Below are positions 17,388 through 58,461 of a DNA stretch of 64,000 nucleotides, in pieces. The stretch is from an uncultured Lachnospiraceae bacterium (GTDB lineage: Bacteria > Bacillota > Clostridia > Lachnospirales > Lachnospiraceae), in NCBI GenBank assembly GCA_947625205.1, contig CANQNN010000001.1:124001-188000 (forward strand). Reading direction: 5' to 3'. Position 1 is the stretch's first letter. Every line of letters begins with the position of its first letter. A program made the position numbers and the translations under genes. A model generated the notes under the pieces. It saw nothing but the letters and a program-made list of their open reading frames with translations. It had not been told where the DNA came from and did not search any database.

Positions 17388-17452
17388 TTGTGACAAATTT
17401 TAACAAAGTGTTAACAAATAGCCTGTCTGTATGTTCAAATTGTACACCATAT

Positions 17453-17550
17453 GGTAAAATAGACGCAGATTCAGCAATCTGCGTCTCAAGAATCGCTTTG
17501 CGATTCTTCCGAAATAATTTACGTTACTGGCGTCAGAGATATAGTAAAAT
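17453..17550. repeat. Double-hairpin intergenic element, copy A
   Basis: A 98-bp element that aligns without gaps to 42470-42567 (about 73% identity by eye). It opens with GGTAAAATA. Hairpin 1 follows (arms GACGCAGATT and AATCTGCGTC, loop CAGC), then hairpin 2 (arms AAGAATCGC and GCGATTCTT, loop TTT), then a conserved tail containing TTTACG and AGAGATAT, and it ends with a second GTAAAAT exactly 90 bp after the first. Both stems are perfect in both copies despite sequence change. It lies between radA and the LytR-CpsA-Psr gene. Either strand could be the functional one. Confidence 0.8.
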
Positions 17551-17591
17551 ATTAGGAATATATGAGATATTTTACTAAGAAGGAGTCGCTT

Positions 17592-18755
17592 ATGGACAAG
17601 CAGATACAGGGTTCCAATGAGCAGGCGGCAGCAGGAGATACGGGGGCGGACGGGTTTAAGCAAGAGGCCGCCCAGCCTATACATAAGGAATCGAAGCGAA
17701 GGCGGATCAACATTCCGCTGCTGATCGCCGAGATAGTTGTGCTGCTTCTTGCGGTCGGTATTATGTATGTGGTAGTCACTGCAACCGGAAAAGTGGAGCG
17801 TAAGGATATAGACCGAGAAAAGATAGCGGTCAACAAAGAAGTTGCCGAAGCCGTCCAGACGGAGGATACCGGTGGGACGGTAAAGAAAAGCAAGGGCTAT
17901 TATAATGTAGCGCTGTTCGGCGTGGATGCAACGGACGGCGAGTTGGGAAGAGGAACGCGGAGCGATTCGATCATCATAGCCAGTATTAACATGGACACGC
18001 AGGAGATCAAACTGATCTCGGTATTCCGCGATACATTTTTGAATCTGGGAAACGATTCTTACAATAAGTGTAACGCCGCGTATGCACAGGGAGGTCCTGA
18101 GCAGGCGATCAGTATGCTGAACACTAACCTTGACCTGAATATTACCGATTATGTGACGGTGGGCTTCGGCGGACTGATCGATTCGGTCGATGCGCTCGGC
18201 GGTATCGAGATGGACGTTACCGAGGCGGAGATATCGCATCTTAACAATTACCAGTTGTCTATGGCCAAGGATATGGGGGTAGACTACATACCGGTAGAGC
18301 ACAGCGGCAAACAGCTTTTAAACGGCCTGCAGGCTACGGCATACTGCCGGATACGTTATACGAAGGGCGATGATTTCAGGCGTGCCGAGCGGCAGAGGGA
18401 TGTGCTGACCGCAATGATGAATAAGGCGAAAGGGGCATCGGTGAGTTCGCTGACCGAAATGGTTCAGGCAATTTTGCCGGAAGTGCAGACTTCGCTGGGC
18501 GTGAATGACATTCTGAATGTTTTAGGAAGTGTGGCGGGCTACAATGTGGTTGCCAGCGACGGCTTTCCGTTTGAGGACGGCAGAGTGGGAGCCAACATCG
18601 GAAGTAAAGGCAGCTGCGTGATCCCGGACGATCTGGAAGAGAATGTGATAGAGCTTCATGAGCTTCTGTATCCGGAAGCGGATTATAAACCGTCAAAGCA
18701 GGTGACCGGTATCAGTAGTGAGATAAAGGAACTGACCGATGAGTATCGGCGATAA
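17592..18755 (+). CDS. LytR-CpsA-Psr (LCP) family wall-polymer transferase
   Basis: LCP enzymes transfer teichoic-acid or capsule-type glycopolymers from lipid carriers to peptidoglycan on the outer membrane face. The 387-residue protein has a basic cytosolic start, one signal anchor (NIPLLIAEIVVLLLAVGIMYVVV) and an LCP domain with LFGVDATDGELGRGTRSDSII, LISVFRDTFLNL and CRIRYTKGDDFRRAERQRDVL, which hold the conserved Asp and Arg residues. The start at 17592 has AAGGAG seven bases upstream; an in-frame ATG at 17562 does not. Element A lies immediately upstream. Confidence 0.9.
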   Translation: MDKQIQGSNEQAAAGDTGADGFKQEAAQPIHKESKRRRINIPLLIAEIVVLLLAVGIMYVVVTATGKVERKDIDREKIAVNKEVAEAVQTEDTGGTVKKSKGYYNVALFGVDATDGELGRGTRSDSIIIASINMDTQEIKLISVFRDTFLNLGNDSYNKCNAAYAQGGPEQAISMLNTNLDLNITDYVTVGFGGLIDSVDALGGIEMDVTEAEISHLNNYQLSMAKDMGVDYIPVEHSGKQLLNGLQATAYCRIRYTKGDDFRRAERQRDVLTAMMNKAKGASVSSLTEMVQAILPEVQTSLGVNDILNVLGSVAGYNVVASDGFPFEDGRVGANIGSKGSCVIPDDLEENVIELHELLYPEADYKPSKQVTGISSEIKELTDEYRR

Positions 18756-29187: not shown

Positions 29188-29247
29188 ATCGTTTATGCCC
29201 TCCGGAATAATTTGTTGATCTGCCGTATTCTCTGATGTCAGTACTGT

Positions 29248-29276
29248 ATAATATGACTTCTGCGCTTATTATACAA
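29248..29276 (-). promoter_or_regulatory. Promoter of the DUF3842 gene
   Basis: On the minus strand TTGTAT, a 17-nt spacer and TATTAT. The boxes also form an inverted repeat (GTATAAT and ATTATAC), so an operator role is possible. Confidence 0.55.
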
Positions 29277-29414
29277 TACCGGTGGACTGATGCGCAAGAA
29301 CCGGCGGTGCATTGCGTCAGGCAGCTTCTTTATCCGGCAGATATTTTCGTATGTCGGCGACCCGTTGTACAAAACATCCAATTTCTTATCCACCAATCTG
29401 TATAATATTCCGAA

Positions 29415-42272: not shown

Positions 42273-42469
42273 GAATAAATACCTCCTTTGTCGTCATCTT
42301 TTAGTGTACTACGAAAACATAGTAAATACAAGAAACAAAGCAGTCCTTTTGCCGCCTTTTACGGCCCTTCGGGGATAATTCGGCGGACCGGATGCAGGAG
42401 ACAGGGCTGTTTTGACAAAGTGCACAAGAAGTAGTCCGGTATTTTGTACAGTAGTTTTAATAAAAGTAT

Positions 42470-42579
42470 GATAAAATAAGCGCAGAGTCAGCACTCTGCG
42501 CTATGAGAATTGCACCGCAATTCTCCCGGAATGGTTTACGGTATCGGCTTTAGAGATATGGTAAAATAAGCGCAGAGTT
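42470..42579. repeat. Double-hairpin intergenic element, copy B (with partial third copy)
   Basis: The homologue of 17453-17550. Hairpin 1 has arms AGCGCAGAGT and ACTCTGCGCT with loop CAGC. Hairpin 2 has arms GAGAATTGC and GCAATTCTC with loop ACC. The tail again contains TTTACG and AGAGATAT. The opening GATAAAATAAGCGCAGAGT recurs 90 bp later at 42560 (GGTAAAATAAGCGCAGAGT), so a new unit begins and is truncated. It lies between the divergent cyclic-nucleotide protein and DUF6508 genes. The remaining gap (42273-42469) shows nothing else clear. Confidence 0.8.
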
Positions 42580-58197: not shown

Positions 58198-58367
58198 ACC
58201 TTAACCGTGAGAAAACATCTTACGGTCGAGCTGACAAAAATATCATATCTCTGTTGATGCTGACATCGAAACTCAAATTGAGATGAAAGACAGTAGGGCT
58301 GTAAGAATGATTCATAATGTTTTAAGATCGATTCTATGAGCGCAGACTGTCGGGTCTGCGCTTTTTT
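58198..58367 (+). ncRNA. Candidate terminated RNA (small RNA or attenuated leader), about 170 nt
   Basis: The unit runs from the predicted start to a terminator (AGCGCAGAC 58339-58347 and GTCTGCGCT 58354-58362, loop TGTCGG, then TTTTTT). Internal helices are visible: AACCGT with ACGGT, CTCA with TGAG inside CAT/ATG, ACAG with CTGT, and a possible end-closing CTTAA with TTAAG. No protein start with a ribosome site occurs inside. Its position just before the hydrogenase-maturation genes allows either a stand-alone RNA or a leader whose terminator controls TM1266-hydEGF. No known family was recognised. Confidence 0.5.
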
Positions 58368-58461
58368 CATCGTAAGGGCGCATCCTGTTTCAACGTATTT
58401 TTGGAGACAGGGCAGCTTATGGAACAGGGATATACCAAATGTACAAAGAGGAGGGATGTGC

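Follow-up and report, generated by a model that had tools for sequence, protein, structure and literature searches.

A small structured repeat, probably mobile, that lies directly 3' of extended -10 boxes in one genus of Lachnospiraceae

The 98-bp block at positions 17453-17550 of the window (the whole 64,000-nt stretch of DNA analysed here, from an uncultured Lachnospiraceae bacterium) is probably a copy of a small mobile element, apparently non-autonomous, that enters promoters 3' of the sigma-A extended -10 box in one orientation and duplicates approximately RTAWAAT. We observed a dispersed family whose members share a compensatory structure, a position and an orientation, with empty orthologous sites in relatives and concordant boxes on the two flanks. 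The proposed course of events is as follows. Insertion would occur directly 3' of the extended -10, in a single orientation relative to transcription, and about seven target bases (RTAWAAT) would be duplicated, leaving a -10 on each side. Native upstream sequence would remain attached to the left -10, and the native gene with its 5' UTR to the right -10. The TG motif of the right-hand extended -10 would come from the element's own right end (GGCATCAGAGA-ATATG), which could allow transcription of the gene to continue. Repeated insertion at one promoter would produce arrays. The insertions are presumably made by an enzyme acting in trans, the hairpins may be recognised, as the element moves, in the form of folded single-stranded DNA or RNA, and either of the flanking promoters, which are predicted from sequence, may be active.

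Promoters are usually disrupted when mobile DNA enters them. Here the insertion appears to hit the promoter where it is most constrained, yet it leaves a -10 on each side and keeps one orientation. The host gene could survive such an insertion and would acquire a structured leader, perhaps with a second start site as well. If so, the element could spread at low cost through compact genomes, and the 5' leaders of many genes per genome would be changed.

Two copies in one window

The original prediction held that the block (copy A) aligns without gaps to positions 42470-42567 (copy B), and it does so with 73 of 98 positions identical. The runner-up ungapped matches to copy A in the window reach 43/98 on the forward strand and 49/98 on the reverse strand, the latter at 17446 and overlapping copy A itself. 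Both copies lie on the forward strand. Hairpin 1 of copy A (17462-17485, supported by sequence and covariation) has a 10-bp stem and reads GACGCAGATT/CAGC/AATCTGCGTC, and that of copy B (42479-42502) reads AGCGCAGAGT/CAGC/ACTCTGCGCT, so the loop CAGC is common to both. From A to B, G-C becomes A-T, A-T becomes G-C and T-A becomes G-C, all of them compensatory. Hairpin 2 of copy A (17488-17508, supported in the same way) has a 9-bp stem and a 3-nt loop and reads AAGAATCGC/TTT/GCGATTCTT; in copy B (42505-42525) it reads GAGAATTGC/ACC/GCAATTCTC, with A-T becoming G-C and C-G becoming T-A, again both compensatory. These are the changes and the loop that had been predicted, and the tail motif TTTACG is likewise kept in both copies. 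The tail is unpaired in copy A (TTTACG...GGCGTCAGAGA, 17518-17539) and ends in AGAGA in copy B (TTTACG...AGAGA, 42535-42556); in the alignments it is the conserved right end of the element.

The repeat reaches a few bases beyond the 98-bp block, with a -10-like TATRRTAAAATA box at both ends of copies A and B. The core of the element is 78 bp, and its period in tandem is approximately 90 bp. Copy A's left border (17450-17461) is the native extended -10 box TATGGTAAAATA, the left target copy, and its right border (17540-17551) is TATAGTAAAATA followed by native-like TTAGGAATA. Copy B has an extended -10 box, TATGATAAAATA, as its left border (42467-42478) and TATGGTAAAATA as its right border (42557-42568), forming a 22-nt direct repeat (42467-42488 and 42557-42578). 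The last ten bases of that repeat (42569-42578) are another unit's start (AGCGCAGAGT, the 5' arm of a hairpin 1), which we read as a remnant. There are two further candidates on the reverse strand. One is a probable degenerate third copy at 29215-29281 (25.6 bits, E 0.004), with its hairpins mostly missing and, by eye, upstream of a reverse-strand ORF. The other is a probable degenerate or longer variant at 58235-58377 (31.4 bits, E 1.6e-4), with hairpin 1 intact and the remainder altered.

By their Pfam domains, the genes flanking copies A and B are unrelated to one another, as had been stated. Copy A's upstream neighbour matches KaiC/AAA_25, LapB zinc ribbon and ChlI, and we read it as radA-like. 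Downstream, behind the occupied promoter, lies a LytR-CpsA-Psr family protein gene (PF03816; 17592-18755, forward strand), for which a start at 17592 is preferred from its RBS and from relatives over the mechanical ORF start at 17562. Copy B lies between a gene whose product has a cyclic-nucleotide-binding domain and one whose product gives no Pfam match.

A conserved paired structure

Covariation was measured in an alignment, A3, of 103 matches (E<=1e-4) from 100 loci, comprising 79 further stretches and 21 own-genome loci. The further stretches come from 80 fetched among the model matches listed, with one (L252) left out; the seven weakest own-genome loci (L044-L050) are also left out, as are L024 and L025, which overlap L022. 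In A3, which was fitted to a model that favours pairing and in which related copies count separately, 97.5% of 1944 pair cells hold standard pairs, and double changes occur at 14 of the 19 pairs (325 cells). Across the five measures used, 500 shuffles never reached the observed value, and structures slid along the alignment pair at no more than 41.7%. The same pairing appears when 17 copies are aligned with MAFFT, without fitting to the model, and double changes then occur at 9/19 pairs. Hairpin 1 types are numerous, for example GACGCAGATT, AGCGCAGGCT, GAAGCAGGCT, GTCGCAGGAT, GACGCAAGCC and GGAACAGGCT, and their 3' arms match. Conservation of the paired structure is therefore strongly supported.

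Transcription usually starts approximately 7 nt past the -10. At that spacing from the left -10, the predicted start is the sixth base of hairpin 1, an A, whose pair is kept in 98/103 copies; for copy A, predicted starts from the left and right boxes fall near 17467 and 17557. A start inside hairpin 1 means that the covarying outer five pairs would be missing from a left-promoter transcript. The covariation of pairs that lie before the predicted start raises the possibility that the full hairpin serves a mobile intermediate. This suggests that it matters in mobile DNA, an RNA intermediate or a read-through RNA, rather than in a host leader or 5' UTR.

Distribution of the family

Further copies with the same covariation were found by searching the genome with a covariance model, R1, built from 17 copies. 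In the element's own 2.9-Mb genome, R1 finds copy B and gives 30 matches at E<=0.01, rising to 39 at E<=1. A blastn search with copy A gives 20 own-genome matches, counting itself and one reverse-strand match inside another copy's palindrome, and misses copy B. Model matches occur in 24 of 25 same-genus genomes (own included), with 1-68 in each; the remaining genome, G023, has none. They sum to some 283, which makes target choice, the role of folding and the enzyme directly testable.

Outside the genus, one of 16 genomes of other families (G031) has model matches, three weak ones, of which the one read (L072) resembles another kind of hairpin. A Lachnospiraceae-wide search matched 6/397 genomes (own, two congeners and three of other genera); it scored only nine candidates per genome, so absence elsewhere is weak evidence. 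Rfam has no match for the element at gathering or relaxed thresholds, and its sub-threshold matches are unrelated, so the earlier statement that no named family has this layout holds as far as Rfam. Phage and plasmid collections gave no blastn match to copy A. The ten records found near the window's LytR-CpsA-Psr gene are all from uncultured Lachnospiraceae, and seven of them carry the isolate name 'Lapin', which we read as rabbit.

Insertion points

Relatives are empty at four orthologous loci, and at three of these the insertion point is visible, directly 3' of an extended -10 (TRTGNTAWAAT). All of these empty/occupied comparisons are between species. At the copy A locus, 10/10 relatives fetched have a native TRTGRTANRAT and no element, and the model finds no match there. 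For example, one relative (L104) reads TATGGTAAAATATTAGAAATA where the window reads TATGGTAAAATA-element-TATAGTAAAATATTAGGAATA. The comparison shows that the box stands on both sides of the element, with native-like sequence running outward from each.

At the cytidylate-kinase-like gene, 5 of the 23 relatives displayed (G020, G454, G468, G455 and G457) align cleanly and have ATATGGTAAAATA without the element; the right box of our own genome's copy is lost. The same promoter in G019 (L161) has a -10, GTGGTAAAATA, and after it GACTCCAGAATCG..., apparently a fragment of a second repeat family described below. At mscL, G438 and G467 are empty at AAATCATGGTAAAGTA, and in G014 a box of the same kind, CATGATAAAATA, precedes another hairpin type, so this promoter holds different hairpin types in two species. 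At the copy B locus, G020 retains AAAGTATGATAAAATA without the full element, followed by a 10-nt hairpin-arm remnant (AACGCAGACT) that stands alone, and G005 has a similar 9-nt stretch. The other copy B loci displayed are without a unit, and some of them (L370 and L372) are not clean alignments. At leuD, G020 is without the element; its empty site, GGATACAAGTATAG, lacks a clear -10 box, an argument against strict targeting. When the model was run on 82 loci from relatives, covering these five genes (leuD only through L115), the G014 mscL copy was the sole match at E<=0.01, and the next best match (24.9 bits, E 0.02) was in L359.

The target box and its duplication

Left flanks were compared with TRTGNTAWAAT in 95 non-tandem copies (102 with enough upstream sequence, minus 7 with an upstream unit). 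A match at 9 or 10 of the 10 informative positions was found in 72 of them, against a background rate of 0.06% in 34,820 windows; both the model and the alignment contain -10 columns, so copies without a box are under-sampled, and the absence of L044-L050 from A3 adds to this. Information in the left flanks is low upstream of -13. We found no convincing -35 upstream of the left box, where the best TTGACA match averages 3.13/6 versus 2.96 in shuffled sequence. A slight TT bias at -30/-29 (0.29 and 0.26 bits), the expected start of a -35 separated by a 17-nt spacer, is barely above AT-rich positions elsewhere (0.23 at -53).

If the box is duplicated upon insertion, the left and right boxes of one copy should resemble each other. 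They agree at 9.06 of 12 positions (n=101), versus 8.34 (sd 0.09, maximum 8.57) in 200 shuffled pairings. The right TA is in register in only 72/103 copies, and in these, at fixed register, agreement peaks at -5 (0.83 vs 0.52) and -8 (0.68 vs 0.47). Tandem neighbours could cause such agreement, so we repeated the test on isolated copies. In the 59 copies without a neighbouring unit, agreement is 0.70 vs 0.50 at -5 (reached by 0/1000 shuffles) and 0.57 vs 0.41 at -8 (reached by 9/1000). In the 37 cleanest copies (isolated, right TA kept), it shows clearly at -5 and -8 and faintly at -2, with none at -1 or from -9 to -12. We conclude that the duplicated target is approximately RTAWAAT, about seven bases, and on this reading the right-hand TRTG would be part of the element.

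The element thus has the target-site duplication of a classical, DDE-type MITE. It has no clear terminal inverted repeats, as no inverted pair of at least 12 was found at copies A or B in a test that covered ungapped pairs of that length. By eye, one hairpin type weakly resembles the right end (with gaps), but the left arm varies by compensatory change.

The element's orientation relative to genes is nearly uniform. With a simple caller based on ORFs and codon bias, the right-hand gene is co-oriented in 95 of the 96 copies for which one was called (it was not called for 7/103, and L218 is the exception in orientation); 46 copies lie between two forward genes and none between two reverse genes, and the median distance from core to called gene start is 56 nt.

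Tandem units and remnants

Units also repeat in tandem with a -10 box between them, for example three at C1:9456-9744, the middle one being of another hairpin type. After 41/103 copies we found at least 9 nt of another unit (one mismatch allowed), versus 0/103 at random downstream positions; for 32 of these 41 copies the match extends no further than 27 nt. By eye, at least five of the 41 (L029, L182, L187, L196 and L225) continue as diverged units, and others stop inside hairpin 1. Some following units differ in hairpin type from the full unit before them, so the partial units look like remnants of separate insertions. Failed copying and later deletion are both possible causes.

Some contigs begin or end inside near-identical arrays (L292, G014:C23:1-600; L295, G013:C43; L190, G014:C13), and these assemblies may therefore show arrays as shorter than they are. 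At L203, L287, L196 and L185 in G014, nested tandem hairpins resembling ATGAGTAAATTGCTCCGCAATTAAC stand inside or beside the element.

Alternative explanations

The family could have arisen with no dedicated mobility, by recombination or template switching at -10 homologies and by unequal crossing over, with quasipalindrome correction instead of selection producing the symmetry of the hairpins. Some arrays do have identical units and borders (L190 and L292), and the borders take the form of short direct repeats. Compensatory-looking changes can also arise by switching of template between arms, and it is possible that the hairpins owe their symmetry to such arm-to-arm correction without selection. 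We consider this explanation of the family unlikely: adjacent units may differ in hairpin type, as at C1:9456-9744, box agreement persists in copies without neighbours, and copies stand at dozens of unlinked promoters.

More doubtful still is a conserved cis-regulatory RNA, i.e., a 5' UTR element controlling downstream genes via its two hairpins. Strong covariation would suit such an RNA, and so would the element's position just upstream of co-oriented genes. Transcripts from the left promoter would include most of the element. However, the downstream genes examined are unrelated (LytR-CpsA-Psr, MscL, aconitase-type leuD and cytidylate kinase, with others judged by eye), the same promoters stand without the element in relatives, the outer covarying pairs lie upstream of the predicted start, and the shared insertion L038/L214, the one pair compared closely, has a stem base changed without compensation. 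The element is thus neither conserved at orthologous genes nor attached to a coherent gene set, and we dropped a regulon reading because the downstream genes are unrelated. Selection on structure had been put forward as the simplest reading of the two window copies. What stands of it is a conserved paired structure in a repeat family; a locus-specific regulatory RNA is not supported, given the unrelated genes and the empty relatives.

A bacterial SINE-like retroelement, spreading by target-primed reverse transcription with the nicked -10 strand's 3' end as primer, would account for a target repeated without clear inverted ends, a folded left end and extra units after the right box that are often only a unit's first part. 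The partial units may equally be deletion remnants, and the distribution of reverse transcriptases makes this reading very improbable. RVT_1 matches occur in five of nine genomes tested and are absent from G005, G012, G020 and G022 (99, 83, 97 and 98% complete). Three of these, G020, G005 and G022, are 97-99% complete and carry element copies, and G023 has ten RVT_1 matches but no copies.

The least credible reading, a REP/BIME or other IS200/IS605-type palindrome mobilised by a Y1 (RAYT) transposase, fits an extragenic palindrome without clear terminal inverted repeats and the single Y1_Tnp protein in our own genome (G000), but no Y1_Tnp was found in G014 (81% complete), G020 (97%) or G013 (100%) despite their 68, 27 and 23 copies, and Y1 systems are not known to have such a target repeated on both sides in one orientation.

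Candidate mobilisers and relation to known elements

Y1 transposase and reverse transcriptase were both rejected as mobilisers, their presence not tracking copy number in the few genomes tested. A search of three genomes with the right-end pattern (up to 1 mismatch) found no longer partner sharing that end among the places read, which exclude one match (G000:C1:227694); the matches were mostly known short copies, and four further places in G014 were degraded or nested short units.

The element is probably of the small, structured, non-autonomous mobile kind, its nearest known counterparts being MITE-like elements such as Correia, BOX/RUP and YPAL, and extended -10 targeting is its new feature: among the titles and abstract openings listed in a literature search by topic, we found no -10-targeted element. 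The bcr1 repeats of the Bacillus cereus group are dispersed, have a conserved secondary structure and show signs of mobility; they differ from the element in size and target, and are set apart by description. Correia elements (CREE/NEMIS) of Neisseria, as described in the available parts of two papers, are small, many-copy, non-autonomous and folded, duplicate their target, and give rise to sigma-70 promoters at insertion junctions; their terminal inverted repeats are 24 bp long, and their insertion sites are often TA and sometimes CA (PMC2649163, PMC2229807). Our element is likewise small, folded and present in many copies, with a duplicated target and promoter-like boxes (predicted here from sequence) at its junctions. 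Unlike Correia elements as those parts describe them, it has no clear inverted termini, with no inverted pair of at least 12, and its target is an extended -10 box, with flanks of TRTGNTAWAAT.

The BOX, RUP and SPRITE repeats of Streptococcus pneumoniae are, in the sections of the source available, dispersed structured repeats with tandem modules (boxB) and are judged parasitic (PMC3049150). The element resembles them as a dispersed structured repeat with tandem units, and differs in that those sections describe no -10 target or single orientation (PMC3049150), a distinction of description, not of sequence. YPAL/RU-2 repeats of Yersinia and enterobacteria, again from a partial text, have no TA termini but internal inverted repeats and target duplications of 3 to 26 bp, and their targets span or adjoin dyad symmetry (PMC2229807). 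Internal inverted repeats and a duplicated target are shared with our element, whose target is a -10 box rather than dyad symmetry.

Related structured repeats

A second structured repeat of approximately 120 bp, unrelated in sequence, has the form GACTCCAGAATCCG...CTGATATGG / GACTCCAGAATCCG...GCTTGATTTCCTGCTGATATGG. It matches in five of seven genomes tested, our own included and G014 weakly. Several of its copies have the same TATAATA borders and others do not; those with TATAATA-like borders include L029 (own contig C29:10722-10862), L302, L303, L306, L310 and L317. If at least two sequence-unrelated structured families share the border box, then the target would be set by the machine rather than by the cargo. 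It is possible, though we would sooner bet against it, that a genus-specific mobility system recognises the extended -10, perhaps as the melted strand of an open promoter complex, and inserts folded single-stranded units. If true, this would be a bacterial counterpart of promoter-seeking retrotransposons.

Rfam has no match for twelve loci that include the second family and the units described next. A similar two-hairpin plan occurs between A-runs (TAAAAAA), not -10 boxes, in G326 (L082, L086, L090, L093, L097 and L101), G127 (L081, L087, L091, L095 and L099) and partly G410 (L094, L098 and L102). In G286, L083 has similar hairpins, also beside an A-run and not a -10 box.
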